Positions 34,903 through 64,000 of a stretch of DNA of 64,000 nucleotides are shown here, one piece after another. Made by a program: the position numbers and the translations under genes. Each line of letters starts with the position of its first letter. Within the stretch, counting starts at the first letter, position 1. This DNA is from Opitutaceae bacterium (lineage in GTDB: Bacteria; Verrucomicrobiota; Verrucomicrobiia; Opitutales; Opitutaceae). The notes under the pieces were generated by a model. It ran no database searches. It had not been told where the DNA came from and saw only the letters and a program-made list of their open reading frames with translations. The DNA is taken from NCBI GenBank assembly GCA_003164715.1, contig PLTZ01000030.1, positions 24,504 to 88,503 on the forward strand, in the 5' to 3' direction.

Positions 34903-35379
34903 TCAAAGCTTCTGCACGACCACCCCGGCGTCCGTCATCAGCTTCGCGACGAGCGGGTCGTTATGGTAACTGGAGCGGTACCGGATCTCGGCGATGCCGG
35001 CCGCGGCCAGCATCTTCGCGCAGTTGATGCAGGGATAGTGCGTCACGTAGGCGACGCATCCGGCGAGCGAGCTGCCGCGCCGCGCCGCGTCCGCCACCGC
35101 GTTCTGCTCGGCGTGGACGGTGGCCTGCTCGTGTCCCGCGCGCACGCGCGACACGTGAGGCGTCCCCGGCAGGAAGCCATTGTAGCCCGCGGCGACGAGC
35201 CGGTTCCTGCGGTCCCCGCCCGAGACGATGACGCACCCGACATGCAGGCGCTCGCAGTTGGAGCGCGTGGCGATGAGGATCGCCGCGGCCATGAAATACT
35301 CGTCCCAGGAGGGGCGGCGGGGAAACCTCCGGGCGGCCTGAGCGATCAGGTCGACCGGGTCTTTCTTTGCGGCGCTCAT
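34903..35379 (-). CDS. deoxycytidylate (dCMP) deaminase-family protein
   Basis: WDEYFMAAAILIATRSNC; VGCVIV; TVHAEQNAVADAARRG; THYPCINCAKML. Confidence 0.88.
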   Translation of the reverse strand: MSAAKKDPVDLIAQAARRFPRRPSWDEYFMAAAILIATRSNCERLHVGCVIVSGGDRRNRLVAAGYNGFLPGTPHVSRVRAGHEQATVHAEQNAVADAARRGSSLAGCVAYVTHYPCINCAKMLAAAGIAEIRYRSSYHNDPLVAKLMTDAGVVVQKL

Positions 35380-35450
35380 TTGATCTGGGCCCAACTCTGG
35401 ACATGCTATGGCGGCCGGGCAACCCTCGACTGAACTGTGACCGGACCCAA

Positions 35451-36095
35451 ATGGAACGAGCCTGCGAACCCGAACTCCTCGATGCGCTGCCCTTCAGCGA
35501 TCCCGACGCTGCGCACAGCCGCCGCGATCTGCGCATCATCAACCGGTTGATGCGCAATGAGGCGTGGTTTGAGCGCACGCTCCCCGGGCTCCTGCGGCCC
35601 GGCGAGCGCGTGCTAGAGCTCGGCAGTGGCACGGGCGAGCTGGGCTGCCGCCTTATCCGCCAAGGGGTTGCGCTGGACGGACTTGACCTCTGGCCGCGGC
35701 CGCAGGCGTGGCCGAAGGACCACCTGTGGCACCAGGCAGACCTCAGGGCCTTCGGCGGCTACGAACCGTACGCAGTGGTGATCGGCAACTTGATCCTCCA
35801 CCAGTTCACGGACCTCGAGCTCGGGGAGCTGGGGGCGAGGCTGCGGCGGAGCGCCCGGGTCGTTCTCGCCTGCGAACCCGCGCGGCGCGGGGCGTCGCAG
35901 CGGCTGTTCGCGGCGCTCGCGCCCCTCTTCGGCGCCAATCACGTCACCCGGCACGACGGGCGAATCAGCATCGCGGCCGGCTTTGTCGGGGACGAGCTGC
36001 CCGCCTCGCTCGGCATCCCTCGGGAGGGCTGGACCACGTCGTGCACCGCCACGGTGCTCGGCGCAATCCGGCTGGTCGCCCTCCGCAGCGCATGA
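35451..36095 (+). CDS. class I SAM-dependent methyltransferase (type III PKS operon)
   Basis: LRPGERVLELGSGTGELGCRLI motif I; stop overlaps downstream ATG (ATGA). Confidence 0.8.
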   Translation: MERACEPELLDALPFSDPDAAHSRRDLRIINRLMRNEAWFERTLPGLLRPGERVLELGSGTGELGCRLIRQGVALDGLDLWPRPQAWPKDHLWHQADLRAFGGYEPYAVVIGNLILHQFTDLELGELGARLRRSARVVLACEPARRGASQRLFAALAPLFGANHVTRHDGRISIAAGFVGDELPASLGIPREGWTTSCTATVLGAIRLVALRSA

Positions 36096-37114
36096 GCGCC
36101 CGCCTTCCGATCGAAATCGTCGGCGGCGGACTCGCCGGCCTGGCCCTCGGCCTTGCCCTGCGCCGCGAAGGGGTGCCGGTAACGGTATTCGAGTCCGGGG
36201 ACTATCCCCGGCACCGCGTGTGCGGCGAGTTCATCTCGGGCCTGGGGGACGACACGGCCGCCTCGCTCGGCCTGCGCGAGTTTCTGGCCGACGCCTGGCC
36301 CCACCGGGTCGTGACCTACCACCTGCGCGGCCGGCCACTCCGGCCGATCCGCCTGCCCGCCCCGGCGCTGGGAATTAGCCGCCACACCCTGGACGCGCGG
36401 CTGGCCAGGGCCTTCGTCGAGAGCGGCGGGCACCTGCGCACCCATACGCGCGCGGACACCTCGCTGTCCCCGGACGGCAGGGTGCACGCCGCCGGCAAGC
36501 GCCGCGACGGGCCGTTCTGGGTGGGGCTTAAGGTGCACCTGCGCAATCTAGACCTCGTCACCGACTTTGAGATCCACCTCGGGGAGCGCTGCTACCTCGG
36601 CCTCTCGAGAGTGGAGACGGGCGCCGTCAATGCGTGCGGGATCTTCGCCCCGCAGGAGCACGCCGAGCGCGGGTTCGGGCTTCTCCTGGCCTACCTTCGG
36701 ACCGCCGGCCTCGGGGCCCTGGCGGAGCGCCTGAGGGCCGCGGACCCGGACCCGGGCTCCTTCTGCGTGACGGCGGCACCGCTCGGTGACCGCCGCATCG
36801 CCCCGTCCGGCCGGATCTGCATCGGCGACGCCTGCGCCTCCATCCCTCCCTTCACGGGAAACGGGCTGGCCATGGCCCTGCAGGGGGCGGAATCGGCAGC
36901 GGGCCCGCTGCTCGCCTATTGCTCGCGCGACTCAAGCTGGGGCGAGGCGGCCCGCGAGGTCGCCTCGGCCCAGCGGGCGCGGTTCTCCAGGCGCCTCATG
37001 GCCGCCAGCCTCATTCATCCCTTCTTCCTCGGGACCTGGCAGCAGTCCTGCCTCGCGGCCTTCATCAACTCACGGATCGTGCCCTTCGGCGCGCTCTACT
37101 CAGTGCTGCGGTAG
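36092..37114 (+). CDS. FAD-dependent oxidoreductase (geranylgeranyl-reductase-like/hydroxylase)
   Basis: IEIVGGGLAGLALGLALRREGVPVTVFESGDYPRHRVCGEFISG; GDACASIPPFTGNGLAMALQGAE. ATG at 36092 in frame with the ORF. Confidence 0.85.
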   Translation: MSARLPIEIVGGGLAGLALGLALRREGVPVTVFESGDYPRHRVCGEFISGLGDDTAASLGLREFLADAWPHRVVTYHLRGRPLRPIRLPAPALGISRHTLDARLARAFVESGGHLRTHTRADTSLSPDGRVHAAGKRRDGPFWVGLKVHLRNLDLVTDFEIHLGERCYLGLSRVETGAVNACGIFAPQEHAERGFGLLLAYLRTAGLGALAERLRAADPDPGSFCVTAAPLGDRRIAPSGRICIGDACASIPPFTGNGLAMALQGAESAAGPLLAYCSRDSSWGEAAREVASAQRARFSRRLMAASLIHPFFLGTWQQSCLAAFINSRIVPFGALYSVLR

Positions 37115-37126
37115 GAGCCCAAAGCC

Positions 37127-38158
37127 GTGTACCTTCACTCCCTCGCCACCGCCGTGCCCGCGGCCGCCTTCACCCAGCCCGACTGCTGGCGGATGGTGGA
37201 GGGTTCCGCCGCGCGCTCCCGCCTCAAACGGCGCTCGATGCTCATCCTGCACAGCATCCTGCGCGGGGACCACGGCATCGAGCGACGGCATTTTTCGGTT
37301 CCCAACGTTGAAAGCGTCTTCGACCGCTCGTCCGACGAACTTAACCAGGCCTTCCGCTCGGAGGCGCCGGCGCTGGCGGCCCGCGCGCTCGGCGCCGCGC
37401 TCGAGAAGGCCGGGGCGGCGCCCGGCGAGATCGACGCCCTCCTTATCTGCACGTGCACCGGGTACCTCTGCCCGGGCGTGACCAGCTACGTCGCCGAGCG
37501 CCTCGGCCTCCGGCAGGACGCGCTCCTCCAGGACATGGTCGGCCTCGGCTGCGGCGCCGCCATCCCGACCCTGCGCGCGGCAAGCCACCTGCTTGCGGCG
37601 CACCCCGGCGCGACCGTCGCCTGCGTCGCCGTCGAAATCTGCTCGGCGGCGTTCTATCTGGACGACGACCCGGGCGTGATCATCAGCGCCTGCCTCTTCA
37701 GCGACGGCGCGGCCGCGACCCTCTGGCGAGCGTCCCCGGGTCCCTCGGGCCTGAGGGCGTTCGGATTCAGCTCGCTCCACCTGCCCGAGGACCGCGACAA
37801 GCTGCGCTTCGAGCAGCGGGACGGGAAGCTGCGCAACCTTCTGCACCGCTCGGTGCCCGAGCTCGCGGCGGGCGCGGTCGGCAGGCTCTGGGCCGGCCGG
37901 GGCCCGCGCCCGGTCGCGGGCGTCGTGGCGCACCCCGGCGGCCGCGACGTCCTTGAGGCGCTGGCGCCCGTCGTCTCGCCCCACCCGCTCGACGCGAGCA
38001 CCCGGACGCTGCGCGAGCACGGAAACATGAGCAGCGCCTCGGTGCTGTTCGCGCTGGAGGAGGCGCTCAGGGGCGGCGGTCCCGGGCCCGAGGGTGATTT
38101 TTGGCTCGTGAGTTTCGGCGCAGGGTTTAGCGCACATAGCTGCCGCCTCGGCCTCTAG
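37127..38158 (+). CDS. type III polyketide synthase (chalcone/stilbene synthase-like)
   Basis: Catalytic triad contexts: MVGLGCGAAIP (Cys), VAHPGGRDVL (His), EHGNMSSASVLF (Asn); C-term VSFGAGFSAHSCRL. Confidence 0.92.
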   Translation: MYLHSLATAVPAAAFTQPDCWRMVEGSAARSRLKRRSMLILHSILRGDHGIERRHFSVPNVESVFDRSSDELNQAFRSEAPALAARALGAALEKAGAAPGEIDALLICTCTGYLCPGVTSYVAERLGLRQDALLQDMVGLGCGAAIPTLRAASHLLAAHPGATVACVAVEICSAAFYLDDDPGVIISACLFSDGAAATLWRASPGPSGLRAFGFSSLHLPEDRDKLRFEQRDGKLRNLLHRSVPELAAGAVGRLWAGRGPRPVAGVVAHPGGRDVLEALAPVVSPHPLDASTRTLREHGNMSSASVLFALEEALRGGGPGPEGDFWLVSFGAGFSAHSCRLGL

Positions 38159-38163
38159 AACCC

Positions 38164-38916
38164 ATGCCCACGCTCAAGGATCTCGTCGATTATTGTGACA
38201 GGCGCACCCGCCTTGCGGCCTTCAAGGACGCCCCGGGAGCGTTCAACGGCCTGCAGTTCGCGAACGACGGCCGCGTCACCCGGATCGGCGCCGCGGTCGA
38301 CGCGGGGCTCGTCCCGTTCCTCGAGGCGGCCCGCGCCGGGGTCGACTTCCTGGTCGTCCACCACGGCATGTACTGGGACATGCCCCGCCCCCTGACGGGC
38401 CCGGCCTACGCACGGGTGGCGGCGCTCGTGAAGGGCAACTGCGCCCTTTACTCCTGCCATCTGCCGCTCGACGCGCATCCGCGGATAGGCAACAACGCCC
38501 TTCTCGCCCGCCAGCTGGGCTTAAGGCCGCGCAGGGGCTTCCTGCCGAACGAGGGCGGCAACATCGGCTGCATCGCGCCGTGCCGGCTCCGGAGATCCGC
38601 CCTGCGCCGCAGGCTTGAGTCGCTCTACCCGAGGGTCGTCTCTATTGAGTGCGGGTCCGCGAGCCCCAAGGCGGTCGCCTTCTGCAGCGGAAGCGGCAAC
38701 GGCGCCATGGCCGCCCTGCCCGGCGCGGGCGCCGACACGCTCGTGACCGGGGAGCTGCGCGAGGAGTGGTTCAACGTGGCGCAGGAGCGCAGGCTCAACC
38801 TCTACCTCTGCGGCCACTACGCTACGGAGGTGCACGGCGTCCGGGCGCTGGCCGCAGAGCTGTCCGCAAAGTTTGGATTGCCGTGGGAGTTCATTGCGAC
38901 CGAAAATCCCCTCTAG
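38164..38916 (+). CDS. Nif3-like dinuclear metal center protein
   Basis: [10 protein letters not shown]...[13 protein letters not shown]...[23 protein letters not shown]...TGELREEW. Confidence 0.88.
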
Positions 38917-53340: not shown

Positions 53341-53576
53341 GAGAAATCGTGACAGGAACCACACATTCTGGGCGCCGTCAATTTTGCCTATTTCGTCCAT
53401 GAGTTGCGCTCACGAGCCCGGGAACCGCCGCCAATCCCGGGCACCGGTCGGGCGGGACCCGGGGCTCCGGCAAGCGCGCGCCCCGTGGCCCTTGAGGTCG
53501 CACACGCTTTGCCCGACGAGCCTCGGATCGAACCTTGCCTCCCGCTCTTCTGCGCCAAGAGTCCACCCTCGTACCC

Positions 53577-56501
53577 ATGACCCGCGTTCTGCTTACGGTG
53601 CCCCCGCACCTGAGAGATTTCATCCATACCTCTGCGGGGCGCAGGCTATGGAGCGGGCGGCTGGCCGAGGTCGCCGGAGGGGCCGAGGTGTTTGTCGGGG
53701 CCGACCCGCGTTCGCGCCGACTGGGCTCCGGGGGCGGCACCGTCGGCCTCCTGGTGCAGGCGTGGCGCGAAGGCCGCGGGCGCCACGGCACACCTCTTTC
53801 CGAATGGCTCCGGGGCGACCAACGGCTGGTGCTGCACGGGGGCGGCGAGAGCCGCCGCCTCCCCGCATACGCCGCCCTCGGGAAGGCGTTCCTGCCGATG
53901 CCGGCCGTCGACGGGCTCGCGCCGCGCCGGTTCGACCAGATGCTCGCGGATTTCCAGATACCGGCCTATCAGCAGGTGCTCCGCGAGGCCGGCACAAAGG
54001 CGGCCGTCCTCGTGACGGCCGGCGACGTCTGGCTCGACTTCGACCCGCTCCAGATCCCCGCCGCCACGGCGGACATCACGGGGATCGGCATGCGGGTGGC
54101 GCCGGAGACCGCCCGGAACTTCGGCGTCTATTTCGTGGCGCGGGAGGCGGGACCCGCCGAGGGTTGCGAGCACCCGATCGCGTTCTTCCGCCAGAAGCCG
54201 GCCGCGGAGGAGATCCACCGCCTCTCGGCGCGTTACGACTACTATGTGGACACGGGGATGTGGCTCCTCAGCCTCGAGGCCTTAAGCCTCCTGTTTCGCC
54301 GGTGCGGGTGGGACGAGAAGCGGGGCCGCTTCGCGACCGCGGACGGCCACCCCGGCCACATGGACCTGTACACCGAGATCGGCTCCGCCCTCGGCCGCGA
54401 GTCCCGCGCTCCGGACCGCCTGCGACGCCTGGGATGGTCCCGCCTGCGCGCCGCCGTGGTCCCACTCGAGGACGCGAGGTTCTACCACCTGGGCTCCAGC
54501 CGCCAGCTCTTCGAGTCCTTCGAGCACATCCAGCGGGGACGCTTCTCGCCGCTCAGGGCGCTGGCCACGGCGACTCCGCCCTCCGCGTTCACCAGCCTGA
54601 CGTCCCTTCCCGTATTGCTCGACGCCGTGGCGGCGCGCCGGCCGATTCGCCTCGACGGGCACAACATCGTCGCCGGGCTTCCCGCCGGGTCCCGCGTCCG
54701 GTGGCTCGGGCAGGGCTGGTGCGCCGAGGCGGCGCCCGTGGGCGGTGGCGAGTGGGTCCTCAGGCCACATCATCTCGACGACACGTTGCGGGGGGCCGCG
54801 GGCACCGGCGGAAGAATCTGCGGGCATGACGCCCTGGACTGGCTCGCCGCGCGCGGCCTGCGCGGGAAGGCGGCCGATGTGTTCGAGCTGCCGATCTATC
54901 CCGTCCTCGCGGCCCGCGAGATCGACCAGGACGCGCTGAACTGGTTCTTCGACCCACACCCCGACCCCGCCGTCGGGGCGCGCCTGGCGCGCCACCGCAG
55001 GCTCTCCGCGGCGCAGATCCCGGAGGCCGTGGACTTCGCACGATGCTTCGCGTCCCGGCGTGCGGCCTATGCCACGTGCCTGCGGGCGGAGTTTGAGGGC
55101 TGCCTTTCGGGAGCCGACATGCGGGTCTTCACGCAGGACTTTGAGGCACTAGGCGCCTACGCGACCAAGGAGGCCCCGGCGCTCGGGCGGTGGCTGCGTG
55201 CGAACGGGCCGCGGATACTCCCGATGATCACCAAGCCCGAGCACGCCTCCCGGCTCCTCATGCTGCTGGCCAGCCTGCGGACGGGACGCCGGCGCGCGGC
55301 ATTGGTCGGCTCGGGCTATGCCCGGCTTCAGGAGTCGGTCATCGCCTCCGGTGGCATCGAGAGGACGCGCCCGCGCCTCGCGCTCAAGGACGACCAGATC
55401 GTGTGGGCGCGCAGTCCCCTGCGCTTCGACCTGGCCGGCGGCTGGACCGACACCCCGCCCTATTGCATCGAGTTCGGCGGCTGCGTCCTCAACGTCGCCG
55501 TGCTCCTGAACGGCCAGCCCCCGATACAGGCGTTCGTGCGCCCGATCACGGAGCTCAAGTTCAGGCTGCGGTCGATCGACCTGGGGTCGATGGAGGACAT
55601 CGACAGCTTTGCGGGCCTGGCCTCCTTTCGCGACGCGCATTCGGGATTCAGCCTTCCGAAGGTCGCGCTCGCCCTGGCCGGATTCCTGCCCGAGTTCGCT
55701 GCCGGCAGGCCCCCGGGCTCGCTGCGCGAGCGGCTCAGGCGATTCGGCGGCGGCCTTGAGATCTCCCTGCTGAGCGCCGTTCCGAAGGGCTCGGGACTCG
55801 GCACCTCGTCGATCGTTGGGGCGACGCTCCTCGCGGCGCTGAATCGGGCCTGCGGCCTCGGTTGGGACCCTGTCGATCTCTACCAGCGGGTCCTGTCGGT
55901 CGAGCAGCTTCTCACGACCGGCGGCGGGTGGCAGGACCAGGCGGGGGCGCTCTTTGCCGGCATCAAGCTGATCCAGACGGAGCCGGGCCTCGCCCAGGCG
56001 CCGAGCGTCCGCTACCTGCCCGAGACCCTGCTCGGCGACGCGTACGCGAACCAGACGCTCCTTCTCTACTACACGGGCGTCACGCGGCTGGCCAAGCGCA
56101 TCCTCAGGGAGATCGTGCACGACATGTTCCTTGCCCGGTCGTCCACGCTGCGGACGCTCGGCCTGATCCGCGCCAACGCCCAGCACCTGCACCACGCACT
56201 CCAGGAGAGCGACCAGGCCTCGCTGCACCGCTGCATTGCGCGCTCATGGGACCTCAACCGGCGCCTCGATCCCGGCACGACTACGCCTCCGATCGAGCGC
56301 ATCATCCGGCTGGCCGGCGAGGACCTGGCCGCCTGCAAGCTTCTCGGCGCGGGAGGAGGGGGCTACATGCTCCTGTGCGCAAAGTCGCCCGAGGCCGGCC
56401 GCAGGATCCGCCGCCGGCTCGAGGAGCACCCCTTGAACGCCCGCGCGCGTTTCGTCGATTTCCGGGTGTCCAGCAGGGCGGTCGAGGTGACCGTGAGCTG
56501 A
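53577..56501 (+). CDS. bifunctional fucokinase / fucose-1-phosphate guanylyltransferase-like protein
   Basis: N-term fucose pyrophosphorylase-like RLGSGGGTVGLLVQAWR; C-term GHMP kinase SPLRFDLAGGWTDTPPYCIEFGGCVLN, VPKGSGLGTSSIVGATLL, LLGAGGGGYMLL. Confidence 0.87.
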   Translation: MTRVLLTVPPHLRDFIHTSAGRRLWSGRLAEVAGGAEVFVGADPRSRRLGSGGGTVGLLVQAWREGRGRHGTPLSEWLRGDQRLVLHGGGESRRLPAYAALGKAFLPMPAVDGLAPRRFDQMLADFQIPAYQQVLREAGTKAAVLVTAGDVWLDFDPLQIPAATADITGIGMRVAPETARNFGVYFVAREAGPAEGCEHPIAFFRQKPAAEEIHRLSARYDYYVDTGMWLLSLEALSLLFRRCGWDEKRGRFATADGHPGHMDLYTEIGSALGRESRAPDRLRRLGWSRLRAAVVPLEDARFYHLGSSRQLFESFEHIQRGRFSPLRALATATPPSAFTSLTSLPVLLDAVAARRPIRLDGHNIVAGLPAGSRVRWLGQGWCAEAAPVGGGEWVLRPHHLDDTLRGAAGTGGRICGHDALDWLAARGLRGKAADVFELPIYPVLAAREIDQDALNWFFDPHPDPAVGARLARHRRLSAAQIPEAVDFARCFASRRAAYATCLRAEFEGCLSGADMRVFTQDFEALGAYATKEAPALGRWLRANGPRILPMITKPEHASRLLMLLASLRTGRRRAALVGSGYARLQESVIASGGIERTRPRLALKDDQIVWARSPLRFDLAGGWTDTPPYCIEFGGCVLNVAVLLNGQPPIQAFVRPITELKFRLRSIDLGSMEDIDSFAGLASFRDAHSGFSLPKVALALAGFLPEFAAGRPPGSLRERLRRFGGGLEISLLSAVPKGSGLGTSSIVGATLLAALNRACGLGWDPVDLYQRVLSVEQLLTTGGGWQDQAGALFAGIKLIQTEPGLAQAPSVRYLPETLLGDAYANQTLLLYYTGVTRLAKRILREIVHDMFLARSSTLRTLGLIRANAQHLHHALQESDQASLHRCIARSWDLNRRLDPGTTTPPIERIIRLAGEDLAACKLLGAGGGGYMLLCAKSPEAGRRIRRRLEEHPLNARARFVDFRVSSRAVEVTVS

Positions 56502-58797: not shown

Positions 58798-60180
58798 ATG
58801 AAGACCTTCCATTCGATCCGTTCCCTTTCGGCATGTCCGGCTGCGCCGCTCCTGCTTGCCGCCCTAGCCGTCGGCAGCGTTTCGGCCCAGACCAAGTCGG
58901 AAACGCGTGCCCAGAAACCCGTTGTCATGGACCACTACGTGGTCGACGCCGCGAAGACGCACACGCTCTTCATGGGCGCCGACATCTCGGTCAACCTCGA
59001 CAAGGATCTCTACGCCGTCCGCGACGTCGTTGGCTCCGCGTGGGTGATCGACATCGATGGTAAGGACAAGATCGTCTCCACCAAGGAAGCCCCGCACAAC
59101 CTGAAGATCACGCCGGTGCTCAAGCTGACCGAGGTGTCCGCCACGATCTCGGGCTTCAAGAAGGAGGCCGCGTACTCCTTCGACAACGATCCAAGCGTGA
59201 TCATCACCCGGGGTCTGACCCGGGCCGCCGTCACAAACGCCATGCTCGTGGGCATTTCGCAGGATGCGCGAAACCTGTCGGACACGGTCGCAAACAAAGC
59301 CCTGGGTCCGGCCGCACTCTTTGCCAGCTCGGATAATCAGTTTGGGGAAAGTGCGCTACTGTTCACGGCCATGACCACCCCGGCCATCACCCATCCGGCA
59401 AAACCCATCCTCGGACAAAGAACTCCGCCCCCGAATCCGCTTGTGCCCACGACCTTTGACAGCCTGGACGGCTTGGGCCTTTCCCAGAGCTTAACCAGTC
59501 AGGCCGCCGTCGCCGCCGCAAGCCAGGCCGCAAGCGGGAACGAGCCGGCCGGCCGCCTCACGACACAGGGCCTGGACGCAATGGATGTGGAATTCGACAT
59601 CTCGTCGGCAACGCCGCTCTACAACCCCTACGTCGTCACCATCACGCGCTTCCACGACAAGCTCGCCAAACCGGGCCTCGTGAAGAGCCTGGTCTACGCC
59701 CGAGCGCTCGACCCCATTGATGCGCATTTCAGCCATGTCCATTTCAGCGAGGACGGTTTCCCGTTCAGCTACGAACTGGTCGACTTTCAGCTCCACATCT
59801 ACAACCGGGGCGTGGAGATCGCGACCAACCTGTCGTCCAAGCGGGTGGAGCTCACCCGCGACGAGGCCTTCGAATACGTGAAGATGGAATACGTGAGCGC
59901 CCACCGCAGCGACACGCTGCCCGCGGTGCCGGCGATGGGAAAATTGCCCGCCGAACTGCCCAACAGGCTCGCCGCCGGAAAATACACCGAGACCTTCTTC
60001 GTCAGGGTCTCGAAGGACGGCCTGGCCGAGGAGCCCTTCGCCGACGTCGCGTGCTCGAGAAAGATCGAGGATCCCTTCCTCGAAGCGGTCGTCAGGAGCC
60101 TGCGTTTCAAGCCCGCGCTGGCCCACGGCGAGCCGGTCGACGGCGTCACCGCATTGAATCTCACGAAGCTTCAGTTCTAG
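58798..60180 (+). CDS. exported protein with TonB-C-like C-terminal domain
   Basis: Signal-like ACPAAPLLLAALAVGSVSAQ; C-term FVRVSKDGLAEEPFADVACSRKIEDPFLEAVVRSLRFKPALAHGEPVDGVTALNLTKLQF. Confidence 0.6.
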   Translation: MKTFHSIRSLSACPAAPLLLAALAVGSVSAQTKSETRAQKPVVMDHYVVDAAKTHTLFMGADISVNLDKDLYAVRDVVGSAWVIDIDGKDKIVSTKEAPHNLKITPVLKLTEVSATISGFKKEAAYSFDNDPSVIITRGLTRAAVTNAMLVGISQDARNLSDTVANKALGPAALFASSDNQFGESALLFTAMTTPAITHPAKPILGQRTPPPNPLVPTTFDSLDGLGLSQSLTSQAAVAAASQAASGNEPAGRLTTQGLDAMDVEFDISSATPLYNPYVVTITRFHDKLAKPGLVKSLVYARALDPIDAHFSHVHFSEDGFPFSYELVDFQLHIYNRGVEIATNLSSKRVELTRDEAFEYVKMEYVSAHRSDTLPAVPAMGKLPAELPNRLAAGKYTETFFVRVSKDGLAEEPFADVACSRKIEDPFLEAVVRSLRFKPALAHGEPVDGVTALNLTKLQF

Positions 60181-60326
60181 AAGTACGAAGCCAATCGCAG
60201 GCATTCGGCCCTTGGGATTCCGGGAACCCCGGGTCCTCGGCCCTTAACCGACGTAGGATATGCAGCCTGCCGCAGCTCAACCGTTGCGGGTTGCAGCGTG
60301 CGCTCGGGACAGATTCACGGCGCAGC

Positions 60327-60667
60327 CTAAGCCGAAGCCGACGTCGCCCCCCTGCCTTCAGCCGCTGCACCGTCCGCGGCCTCCTCAATGGCGTCAAATG
60401 TCTCAGACAGCATCTGAAGAATCTTTGCTCTGGGGAGGTGGGTTCGATCTCCTTCATCCTCTTCAATGCCTCAAGGCCGTTCACGAACGGCATATTCACA
60501 TCAATCAGCACGACTTTCGGTTTCTCCTGCTGGAACACCGCAATGGCCTCTTCGCCGTTTCCGGCTTCAAGGACGGTTCAGACTCCGAGCTGATTCAATA
60601 TCATTCCGACGAACTTGCGGATGTGGGGCTCGTCGTCAGCCACCAGAACTGGTCCGTTGAATTTCAT
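60327..60667 (-). pseudogene. decayed CheY-like response regulator
   Basis: Manual translation: MKFNGPVLVADDEPHIRKFVGMILNQLGV*TVLEAGNGEEAIAVFQQEKPKVVLIDVNMPFVNGLEALKRMKEIEP..., then frame change to ...RAKILQMLSETFDAIEEAADGAAAEGRGATSASA*; TGA at 60580..60578. Confidence 0.8.
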
Positions 60668-61809
60668 GCGGCGAATGGAAGGGAAACGCTGAATTCGCAA
60701 CCACCGGATCGAAGGTTGTCCGCTCGAATGGTGCCGTGATGCGCCTCGACAATCTTCTGGCAGATGGCAAGGCCCAGCCCGGTGCTCTGCTCGCCGCCCG
60801 TAGGGCGTGCTGTAAGACGGCTGAAATTCTTGAAGAGCCTGCCACGCTCACCGTCGGGAATGCCGGGGCCCTGGTCCTGCACCGAGAAGCCGCAGGTGCC
60901 CTGCTCGGTCTCGACGGAAATGAAAGCCTTGATCGTTGCCCCTGGGGGCGAATACTTGACCGCGTTGCTCAATAGATTGTCGACCACTTGGCGAATCTTC
61001 GCGGCATCCATCATCAGCGTCGGCGCCGCCTGAGGTTTGACCAGCTCGATGCGGGTCCTTTTTTTCGTCGCCTCTATGTTGGCAAACCTGACCGCCTTTC
61101 CAATCAGCTCTGCGAGGGAGCGCCGCTCCAGGTGAAGCTTCAATTCTCCGGATTGAATCGTAGCGACATCCAGCAATTCGTTCACGAGATCGAGCATCGA
61201 CTGGCTGGCGCCGTGTATTGTGACCACAAGATCCAGCTGGTCCGCAGTGAGTGGGCCCACCACACCGTCCCTAAGGAACTCCGAAAAACCCCTTATCGAG
61301 GCCAGCGGGTTGCGAAGATCATGTGCCGCCATGCCGAGAAAGCGATTCTTGGACGCGTCCGCCTTGTTCAGCTGCTCAACAAGAAGTTGCTGCTGCTCCA
61401 AAAGGATCCGGTTCTGTAGGTGCGATCGAATGCGGGCGAGCACCTCTTTCCCCTTAAACGGCTTCGGAAGATAATCGACACCACCGGCTTCCAATCCTTC
61501 GACGATGTCGTCGGAATCATTCTTGGCTGTGATGAATACCACAGGGGCGCATTTGCCGTTGTATGTGTTCTTCAGCCGCCGGCACGTTTCAAGCCCGTCA
61601 ATGCCTCCCATTACCACGTCAAGTAAGACAAGGTCGGGAAGAAACTTCGCATAAGCTTCCAGCGCGTGTTCGCCTGAATCCGCCTCCGCAACATCAAATC
61701 CCTCGCTTCTCAAGATGGACGAAAGAATCCGGACATTCAGTCGGTCATCGTCGACAATGAGAATTTTCCGTCCAGCGAGGCTTTCTAGCGAGGAGGGGAT
61801 TTGCTGATT
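60664..61809 (-). CDS. REC domain-histidine kinase hybrid
   Basis: ILIVDDDRLNVRILSSILRSEGFDVAEADSGEHAL...LVLLDVVMGGIDG; FLGMAAHDLRNPLASIRGFSEFL; STGLGLAICQKIVEAHHG. Confidence 0.92.
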   Translation of the reverse strand, partial: NQQIPSSLESLAGRKILIVDDDRLNVRILSSILRSEGFDVAEADSGEHALEAYAKFLPDLVLLDVVMGGIDGLETCRRLKNTYNGKCAPVVFITAKNDSDDIVEGLEAGGVDYLPKPFKGKEVLARIRSHLQNRILLEQQQLLVEQLNKADASKNRFLGMAAHDLRNPLASIRGFSEFLRDGVVGPLTADQLDLVVTIHGASQSMLDLVNELLDVATIQSGELKLHLERRSLAELIGKAVRFANIEATKKRTRIELVKPQAAPTLMMDAAKIRQVVDNLLSNAVKYSPPGATIKAFISVETEQGTCGFSVQDQGPGIPDGERGRLFKNFSRLTARPTGGEQSTGLGLAICQKIVEAHHGTIRADNLRSGGCEFSVSLPFAA

Positions 61810-61912
61810 CATGCCTGGGATTTCGCCCTGGTGCGCGGACTCCAAACTAGCCCCCGCATAGGCCAGAAGTAATGGGGTGTTGTACTACCCGGCCCGGCTG
61901 CTTTCATCTCCC

Positions 61913-62241
61913 CTGTTGACGAGGCTCTGTTGCAATGCGCGGGGAACCCTCCTGAAAAACACTCTCGAAGCCAGCCAGCCCGGCAACACCCTCGTGATGG
62001 GAGCGGAGGAGCGCGCTGAGCGATCCATATTCTGGTGCTATAATCGGCAGCCATTTCCACGCGACGTCCGATTGCCGCTTTTCCAGCAACCAAGGGTCCG
62101 GAGCGAGGCATAGGCACCTACAGCATCAGGCTTCTGACCGAACGGCATTTAGGTGGGCAGCTCATATGGTCGTCGAGCCCGGAAACGGGCACGCGATTCG
62201 AACTCCCATTTCCCAGGACGATTGCTTGAGGTACGCTTAGC
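61913..62241 (+). pseudogene. histidine-kinase C-terminal (HATPase_c) remnant with frameshift
   Basis: LLTRLCCNARGTLLKNTLEASQPGNTLVMGAEERAERSIFWCYNRQPFPRDVRLPLFQ then shifted frame TKGPERGIGTYSIRLLTERHLGGQLIWSSSPETGTRFELPFPRTDCLRYA*. Confidence 0.8.
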
Positions 62242-62269
62242 CATCGAGTGTTCCACATCAGAGCTCAAT

Positions 62270-62288
62270 ACAACATCTGGTGTTGTAA
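62270..62288. repeat. small inverted repeat in an AT-rich intergenic region
   Basis: TACAACA-TCTGG-TGTTGTA, perfect 7-bp arms. Confidence 0.4.
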
Positions 62289-62430
62289 GACGTTGATGCT
62301 GTATAGGACGGATTTCTAAAGTTATATCATTCTACTCAACCGAACCCCTTAATCATTTATTATCGAATGCTTCGAAACACAATGATTCGCTAGAAACCCG
62401 CAGGCAATACGGGCTCCGAGCCTTATCCTA

Positions 62431-63292
62431 GGGAATGTCTTCAAACCGCATGGAACCTGAAATATGATGATCTGTCGTAGGATGCTCCATGTTGTTTACA
62501 GATCGAATGGAGTTGCCCGAGCCGCTCTGGGAGCGGCTAAAAAAATTGATCTGACCGCGCCGGAAATCGGCAGGTGGCCTCTCGTAACAAAGGAGGGCGA
62601 CCTCGCAAGGATGACCGATGCATGGTTACGGCGATGTGGTATGTGCTTCGCACCGGTATCCCGTGGCGAGACCTTCCGCACCGATTCGGACCCTGGAGCT
62701 CGGTCTACACGCGCTTCCGACGATGGTGTGCATCTGGTCTCTGGGCCAGAATCCTTGCTAAGCTTGGAAGTGCGGCATTTGGCCGAATCCGCTGAGTGGA
62801 CTGCTCGCACATCAAGGTGCATCGAGACGGTGCCAATCCGATTGGCGGACAAGCCTCCCAGGCTATGGGACGGACCAAAGGAGGCCTCAATACGAAGCTC
62901 GCTGCTGTTGTCGACGGTGTCGGCCGGGCAGTCGGACTCCATCTCGCTCCTGGACAGAAGCATGACCTCAGGGCCTGCGAGCCGCTCGAAACCGAGCTGC
63001 ACGGCCGCTGGGCCGTTGCCGACAGGGCTTTCGATTCGAATGGTCTCAGGCATCGCCTTGCAGAAAGCGGCGCGATGGTCTGCATCCCCCCAAAAGGCAC
63101 CCGTCGCATTGCCTATCGCTTCGACCGCCGCCTCTATGCGCATCGACACACGATTGAGAACTACTTTGCCCGCATCAAACGCCACCGTCGGATCGCGACT
63201 CGTTACGAGAAGCTTGCCGTCACCTTCCTCGGCTTCATCCAGTTCGCTACGGTGCTCGATTGGCTCACTCATGAGGTTTGAATAACACGCCC
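62431..63292 (+). mobile_element. degenerate IS5-family (IS427-like) insertion sequence
   Basis: Transposase-derived coding region flanked by imperfect terminal inverted repeats GGGAATGTCTTCAAACCGCATGG (left) and GGGCGTGTTATTCAAACCTCATGAG (right, revcomp). Confidence 0.8.
62489..63281 (+). pseudogene. IS5-family DDE transposase, disrupted
   Basis: MLFTDRMELPEPLWERLKKLI* (TGA 62552), then shifted frame NKGGRPRKDDR...VLRTGIPWRDLPHRFGPWSSVYTRFRRW...FGRIR* (TGA 62793) VDCSHIKVHRDGANPIGGQ...VADRAFDSNGLR...HTIENYFARIKRHRRIATRYEK. Confidence 0.88.
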
Positions 63293-63359
63293 CGACCCAT
63301 CAACAATGCCCCCGTAATTGGTGTCTGAATTGTCCAGAGAATCGCACTCCAGCAATTTT

Positions 63360-63821
63360 ATGAACGCCATTCAAGGTTACCATCTCATCAAGCCGGAAGA
63401 CCTCTTCTGGCGGCCGTCGAACTTGATGAAGATCCCGAATGCGGACTATTTGGAGCGCACCGGGAGTAAAAACATTGGTGCGCGGCTCTGGCGGTTCCCG
63501 CCCAAGAGCGCTAGCACGCTGCATAAGCACGTACGCGCAGAGGAATTTTATTTCGTGCTGGAGGGCACGGGCCGCCTGCGCGTCGGCGAAGAGACGTTGA
63601 CCGTGCCGCGCTACGGCGGCGTGTTGGTCGGCCCAGACCGGTTGCGCCAAGTGTTCAACGATACGGACACCGAGGTGCTCTGGCTGATCATCGGCGCGCC
63701 GGAGGAGCTGGAATTTCTGCAAGGCGCAAAATCCAAAGCGGACCTCTCGCTCATCTACCCGGTTGATCCGACTCAATTGCCGAAGGAATTGGCCGGCGTG
63801 GAATGGCCACCCAAGAGTTGA
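63360..63821 (+). CDS. cupin-domain protein
   Basis: STLHKHVRAEEFYFVLEGTGRLRVGEETLTVPRYGGVLVGPDRLRQVFNDTDTEVLWLIIGAPEE. Confidence 0.85.
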   Translation: MNAIQGYHLIKPEDLFWRPSNLMKIPNADYLERTGSKNIGARLWRFPPKSASTLHKHVRAEEFYFVLEGTGRLRVGEETLTVPRYGGVLVGPDRLRQVFNDTDTEVLWLIIGAPEELEFLQGAKSKADLSLIYPVDPTQLPKELAGVEWPPKS

Positions 63822-64000
63822 ATAGGGTACGGGCGCTCAGGCGTCGCAAAGGAGCAAAGGCGAAAGAGTCCACGGGAAGCCAACCCATCTGGCGACAATG
63901 AGACCGGTTAGCCGATCGTACGTGCCGATTCGTCACAGCCATTCTCAGTGATAATTTAAGACTCCTGAGGGCGATCCCCACGGCTGTCTGATCAGAACCC

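Follow-up and report, generated by a model that had tools for sequence, protein, structure and literature searches.

A probable hierridin-type phenolic-lipid operon in an Opitutaceae bacterium and its distribution in the class Verrucomicrobiia

Background

The hierridin gene cluster hidABC, comprising genes for a methyltransferase (MT), an oxidoreductase and a type III polyketide synthase (PKS), is known from several cyanobacteria, among them Cyanobium sp. LEGE 06113 (Costa 2019; PMC8086630). The cyanobacterial clusters occur in two gene orders, hidA-hidB-hidC and hidC-hidA-hidB, and the PKSs of HidC clade 3.2222 are reported to carry Met at the position of Phe265 of chalcone synthase (CHS), a position occupied by Gln or Asn in the cyclophane (CylI) clade (PMC8086630). 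Operons of the order MT-oxidoreductase-PKS are present in the Planctomycetota Gimesia maris, Rhodopirellula baltica and Stieleria maiorica, and a two-gene version without oxidoreductase is described for the latter (PMC10896814). When expressed in C. glutamicum, planctomycetal PKSs formed pentadecyl- and heptadecylresorcinols (C15/C17 alkylresorcinols). Co-expression of the G. maris MT gene PM8797T_03249 and FAD gene PM8797T_03244 resulted in the addition of one methyl group, probably on carbon, with the role of the FAD enzyme left unresolved (PMC10896814). Published records of the hierridin-type operon accordingly come from cyanobacteria and planctomycetes, and transfer between the two has been invoked to explain why both possess it.

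For Verrucomicrobiota, no report of a hid-type operon was found among the open-access papers searched, in which "hierridin" and Verrucomicrobiota are named together only in three papers on planctomycetes. A type III PKS (T3PKS) cluster of the Opitutales strain ASA1 (Congregicoccus parvus) is listed as unlike any known cluster (PMC12193912). The present study concerns an MT/FAD/PKS gene trio of an Opitutaceae bacterium, located in a 64,000-nucleotide stretch of DNA (the whole stretch analysed, hereafter the window) that belongs to contig C49 of the genome (3.79 Mb).

Results and discussion

Organization of the locus

The following features were assigned (coordinates in the window, strand and basis of assignment):

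34903..35394, minus strand: dCMP/cytidine deaminase, flanking the insertion site on the left, outside the pathway (Pfam dCMP_cyt_deam_1, synteny)
35451..36095, plus strand: class I SAM-dependent MT, 214 amino acids, HidA-like in position and type (ORF, homologue profile, families, AlphaFold model)
36092..36095, plus strand: ATGA stop/start overlap of the MT and FAD genes (sequence)
36092..37114, plus strand: FAD-dependent oxidoreductase with aromatic-hydroxylase-like fold, 340 amino acids, HidB-like in position and type (family matches near or below cut-offs, model, motifs)
37127..38158, plus strand: type III PKS, 343 amino acids, HidC-like in position and type (Pfam/NCBIfam, PDB relatives, tree)
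37550..37552, plus strand: codon of PKS catalytic Cys142 (invariant in 33 homologues)
37835..37837, plus strand: codon of PKS Asn237, equivalent in position to the gatekeeper Phe265 of CHS (profile alignment with plant enzymes)
37931..37933, plus strand: codon of PKS catalytic His269 (invariant in 33 homologues)
38024..38026, plus strand: codon of PKS catalytic Asn300 (invariant in 33 homologues)
38164..38916, plus strand: Nif3-like (DUF34) gene, flanking the insertion site on the right, outside the pathway (Pfam DUF34_NIF3)

The three co-directional genes, the ATGA overlap and the 12-nt spacing between FAD stop and PKS start (GTG) agree with an earlier, sequence-only reading of this DNA. The nif3-like gene starts 5 nt beyond the PKS stop. 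No promoter-like site was found, terminator-like matches did not exceed chance level, and Rfam yielded zero matches anywhere in the window.

Type III polyketide synthase

Membership of the type III PKS family is indicated by matches above the curated cut-offs of the chalcone synthase superfamily (27 bits each), i.e., PF08392 (FAE1_CUT1_RppA, 60 bits), PF00195 (Chal_sti_synt_N, 49 bits) and PF02797 (29 bits), together with the presence of the Cys-His-Asn triad. The contexts of the three catalytic residues, recognized already in the sequence-only reading, are indeed kept, with C142, H269 and N300 being invariant in 33 diverse homologues. The same applies to Asn237 at the CHS Phe265 position. Relatives in the PDB are THNS, Pks11 and CHS.

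In a maximum likelihood tree of 74 proteins, in which FabH forms a long outgroup and the root is unsure, the window PKS falls into a clade that includes every sampled MT-FAD-PKS enzyme (support 100/99). Its sister clade (100/98) consists of PKS-MT-FAD enzymes including that of a Caballeronia plasmid, and both clades are joined at 99/94. This joint clade is separate from DpgA, THNS, Pks11, chalcone synthase, 2-pyrone synthase and the PKS linked to an ICMT-type MT; the latter enzyme (from Sulfitobacter) clusters with Rhizobium and Pks11 rather than with the window clade.

Two other identities were considered and rejected. The best NCBIfam match of the PKS is the DpgA model, at 132 bits against a cut-off of 425; phylogenetic comparison with DpgA, as proposed in the sequence-only reading, placed the window PKS on a separate branch, and the neighbours of the PKS locus are the deaminase, MT, FAD and nif3 genes, with no dpgB, dpgC or dpgD among them. 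A grouping with KAS III, which the same reading had regarded as evidence against its proposal, did not emerge either: the FabH model TIGR00747 reached 48 bits against a cut-off of 292, and in the tree the window's own FabH lies far away as an outgroup.

Methyltransferase and FAD-dependent oxidoreductase

The window MT on its own has no Pfam match, including none to the ICMT family. All 30 aligned homologues matched NF004851 with scores under its cut-off, and a class I Methyltransf model was matched by up to 11 of them. The AlphaFold model (pLDDT 96.9) displays a Rossmann fold, and its neighbours in the PDB are small-molecule C- and O-methyltransferases, among them the aromatic C-methyltransferases NovO and CouO. 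Since both types are represented, methylation may be on C or O. Residues G60, G62, D79, H117, E142, R145 and D169 are invariant in the MT homologues.

The FAD enzyme matched FAD_binding_3 and GG-red-SF below or near the respective cut-offs, and the GxG and GD motifs are conserved in its homologues. The best folds retrieved with its model (pLDDT 93.1) are 3-hydroxybenzoate 6-hydroxylase, flavin halogenases and kynurenine monooxygenase (KMO); the predicted fold is in keeping with ring hydroxylation. A plasmid search revealed no relative of the window FAD protein.

Conservation and distribution of the trio

Neighbourhoods were searched with the window trio, the Caballeronia trio and profiles built from the matches. 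Altogether 89 complete collinear trios were retrieved, mostly with overlapping or nearly touching genes, of which 79 have the order MT-FAD-PKS and 10 the order PKS-MT-FAD. Median gaps in the MT-FAD-PKS group are -4 nt (MT-FAD) and 5 nt (FAD-PKS), and the protein distances of MT, FAD enzyme and PKS in this group correlate at 0.78-0.83, exceeding all 2000 permutations, with shared ancestry contributing to these values. Beyond the trio, the most frequently recurring gene family was found in at most 11 of 103 neighbourhoods. Tightly conserved in two gene orders, the MT/FAD/PKS trio is a real unit and not a chance assembly, since it recurs throughout the class; the conservation in relatives that the sequence-only reading had called for is thereby established.

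At E <= 1e-20, a PKS homologue was detected in 165 of the 385 genomes sampled from the class. For 17 of them the match is distant and belongs to other clades; with these set aside, ~148/385 are left. Within the family, 65 of 120 genomes contain a PKS match. An MT-PKS pair without FAD gene is present in five Opitutaceae (G291, G321, G594, G645, G654), and further partial loci comprise FAD-PKS as well as PKS alone, the latter in several Akkermansiaceae and other lineages. A search of viral contigs gave no HidC or planctomycetal homologues.

Several loci deviate from this pattern. Solitary window-type PKS genes without MT or FAD genes (L120, L133, L138, L139 and L150, from Akkermansiaceae and other MAGs) are preceded by genes for outer-membrane efflux and HlyD proteins and followed by that for an FKBP-type isomerase, possibly representing an export-linked variant. 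A second, divergent type III PKS (L043, G343:C1:2963675-2964685; 34-35 % identity) with no adjoining MT or FAD gene occurs in a genome that also contains the trio, and an incomplete PKS match containing two in-frame stops (G636:C333:8352-8711) is probably a decayed copy.

Outside the phylum, plasmid pSBC2-3 of Caballeronia sp. SBC2 (L073, 6001-10708) encodes PKS-MT-FAD followed by an acyl carrier protein (ACP) and a ketosynthase; this locus is a betaproteobacterial representative of the PKS-first clade, and its own ACP may hint at the source of the starter. PKS genes with MT and FAD-type or NAD-binding neighbours were also observed on plasmids of Deinococcus radiodurans (L203, 2992-7080; followed by a glycosyltransferase gene), Psychrobacter (L206) and Microvirga (L074). 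In the tree, the PKSs of these three belong to one or more clades other than that of the window. The same helper enzymes thus recur with unrelated type III PKSs, so that the product does not follow from the gene content alone.

Proposed product and alternatives

The trio is interpreted, by analogy, as a hierridin-type (hid-like) phenolic-lipid operon, to which a probability of about 0.68 is assigned. This interpretation draws on the class-wide occurrence of the tightly packed trio in the same two orders as the hierridin clusters, on the FAD-less two-gene version known from Stieleria maiorica and likewise found in the five Opitutaceae, and on the likeness of the FAD enzyme model to 3-hydroxybenzoate 6-hydroxylase and phenol-acting flavin enzymes. 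It is weakened by the invariant Asn, as opposed to Met in HidC, and by the trios containing PKSs of other clades.

In the proposed pathway, the PKS would load a long-chain acyl thioester (about C14-C18, as acyl-ACP or acyl-CoA), extend it three times with malonyl-CoA and close the ring by aldol condensation with loss of CO2, yielding a 5-alkylresorcinol. An acyl-ACP starter would fit the ACP and KAS genes adjoining the Caballeronia trio. The MT would methylate this product once or twice, at carbon or at phenolic oxygen, and the FAD enzyme, given its aromatic-hydroxylase appearance, would introduce a ring hydroxyl group. The alkylresorcinol core and a single methylation have precedents in the literature on apparently homologous operons. 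By analogy with these, proposals are made here for the substrate, the sequence of reactions, the end product and the role of the pathway in this bacterium. Of the methylated or oxidized alkylresorcinol- or alkylpyrone-type lipid envisaged in the sequence-only reading, the alkylresorcinol is thus retained as the best reading, and the alkylpyrone becomes a rival.

The invariant Asn gatekeeper leaves room for a different product. Met, however, is the mark of a single cyanobacterial subclade, and hid membership is not known to require it; moreover, HidC and CylI clades both make resorcinols, so the gatekeeper may affect how the starter is handled more than which type of ring is formed. It is conceivable, though rather unlikely, that the product of the Asn-gatekeeper verrucomicrobial clade is a phenolic or quinone lipid other than a hierridin, e.g., a C-methylated, ring-hydroxylated alkyl-benzoquinone acting in the membrane. 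Over a third of the genomes sampled from the class would then make such a lipid.

A related proposal, for which the odds are low, is that the product is a methylated alkyl-hydroxyquinone lipid serving as membrane redox carrier or antioxidant rather than a hierridin-like phenol. The fold of the FAD enzyme is nearest to a para-hydroxylating phenol hydroxylase, and NovO and CouO, both aromatic C-methyltransferases, are among the MT neighbours. For a Streptomyces, a role of a polyketide quinone has been reported (PMC9927152), and a redox carrier or antioxidant function has been proposed for some type III PKS products of the genus. Yet the hid-type operons have no known quinone product, and about half of the family genomes lack the operon, whose product is hence no essential carrier.

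Formation of an alkylpyrone by intramolecular lactonization, followed by methylation or oxidation, as for PKS18/Pks11- or ArsC-type enzymes, appears improbable. Pks11 is among the nearest solved structures, and products of type III PKSs are not readable from sequence; in the tree, however, Pks11 lies outside the window clade, and alkylresorcinols are the products of planctomycetal PKSs from such operons (PMC10896814).

The srsABC phenolic-lipid operon of Streptomyces griseus, named in the sequence-only reading, resembles the trio by name in its three enzyme classes (PKS, methyltransferase, flavoprotein). SrsB is an ICMT-type methyltransferase, and the gene order of srsABC differs from MT-FAD-PKS. 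The window MT, in contrast, is of the class I Rossmann type with zero ICMT match, and the ICMT-linked Sulfitobacter PKS, used as a proxy for SrsA, groups elsewhere in the tree than the window PKS. An srsABC-type operon is therefore very improbable and was rejected on the type of MT; hidABC and the Planctomycetota operon provide the better match, in gene types as well as in the two gene orders.

Insertion site and the nif3-like gene

In 27 Opitutaceae, the PKS gene lies between a divergently oriented dCMP deaminase gene and a nif3-like gene, with a deaminase-nif3 gap of 1.8-3.3 kb; this count leaves out G581 and G586 (gaps of 4.6 and 1.7 Mb). Deaminase and nif3 genes are directly adjacent (gap 77-686 bp) in 47 genomes, 30 of which lack the PKS and 17 of which carry it elsewhere. 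All three situations occur in the window's genus: in G604 the pair is intact and the PKS is missing, in G660 the pair is intact and the PKS lies ~35 kb away, and G645 holds an MT-PKS pair within the site. Because genomes that lack the PKS, or carry it at another locus, keep the pair intact, the operon is a module entering or leaving the deaminase/nif3 site, and nif3 is only a neighbour.

The sequence-only reading had suggested that the operon may extend into the nif3-like gene at 38164. Their adjacency is real, and the distance of merely 5 nt makes read-through from the operon into nif3, i.e., co-transcription, likely; a fourth functional member of the operon is nevertheless hardly credible in view of the occurrence of nif3 in 116 of the family's 120 genomes irrespective of the PKS, which is present in 65, of the 47 genomes with nif3 beside the deaminase gene and no PKS between them, and of trios at other loci without nif3. 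The synteny survey thus ruled out nif3 as a conserved part of the operon.

Other features of the window

A 988-amino-acid protein (53535-56501) combines fucose pyrophosphorylase and GHMP kinase domains and is of the bifunctional fucokinase/GDP-fucose pyrophosphorylase type. Towards the end of the window (60001-64000), the GC content drops from ~0.68 to 0.57 and a DDE transposase fragment is present (62796-63281); this region is perhaps an acquired or insertion-sequence-rich stretch.

Comparison with known systems

The locus is probably a widespread verrucomicrobial case of an already described operon type. The expectation of undescribed chemistry expressed in the sequence-only reading is weakened by the apparently homologous operons, which have been described and partly characterized. 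With the same two gene orders in ~148/385 genomes of the class, the distribution of the operon type is much wider than described, and the question of transfer should be reopened to include Verrucomicrobiota. For unassigned T3PKS clusters of Opitutales such as that of strain ASA1, a cultured relative with the operon (locus L171), a likely product class can now be offered.

Compared by published description, the locus shares with hidABC a compact single operon that encodes an MT, an FAD-type oxidoreductase and a type III PKS, here in the order MT-FAD-PKS corresponding to hidA-hidB-hidC; this order and hidC-hidA-hidB are both found in cyanobacteria and in this verrucomicrobial class. It differs from hidABC in its phylum and in the residue at the CHS Phe265 position, which is Asn here versus the Met reported for HidC. 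The operons of Planctomycetota, likewise compared by description, share the order MT-oxidoreductase-PKS and the occurrence of an FAD-less two-gene version; they belong to another phylum, and their products have been demonstrated by expression, whereas an alkylresorcinol-derived phenolic lipid is predicted here.
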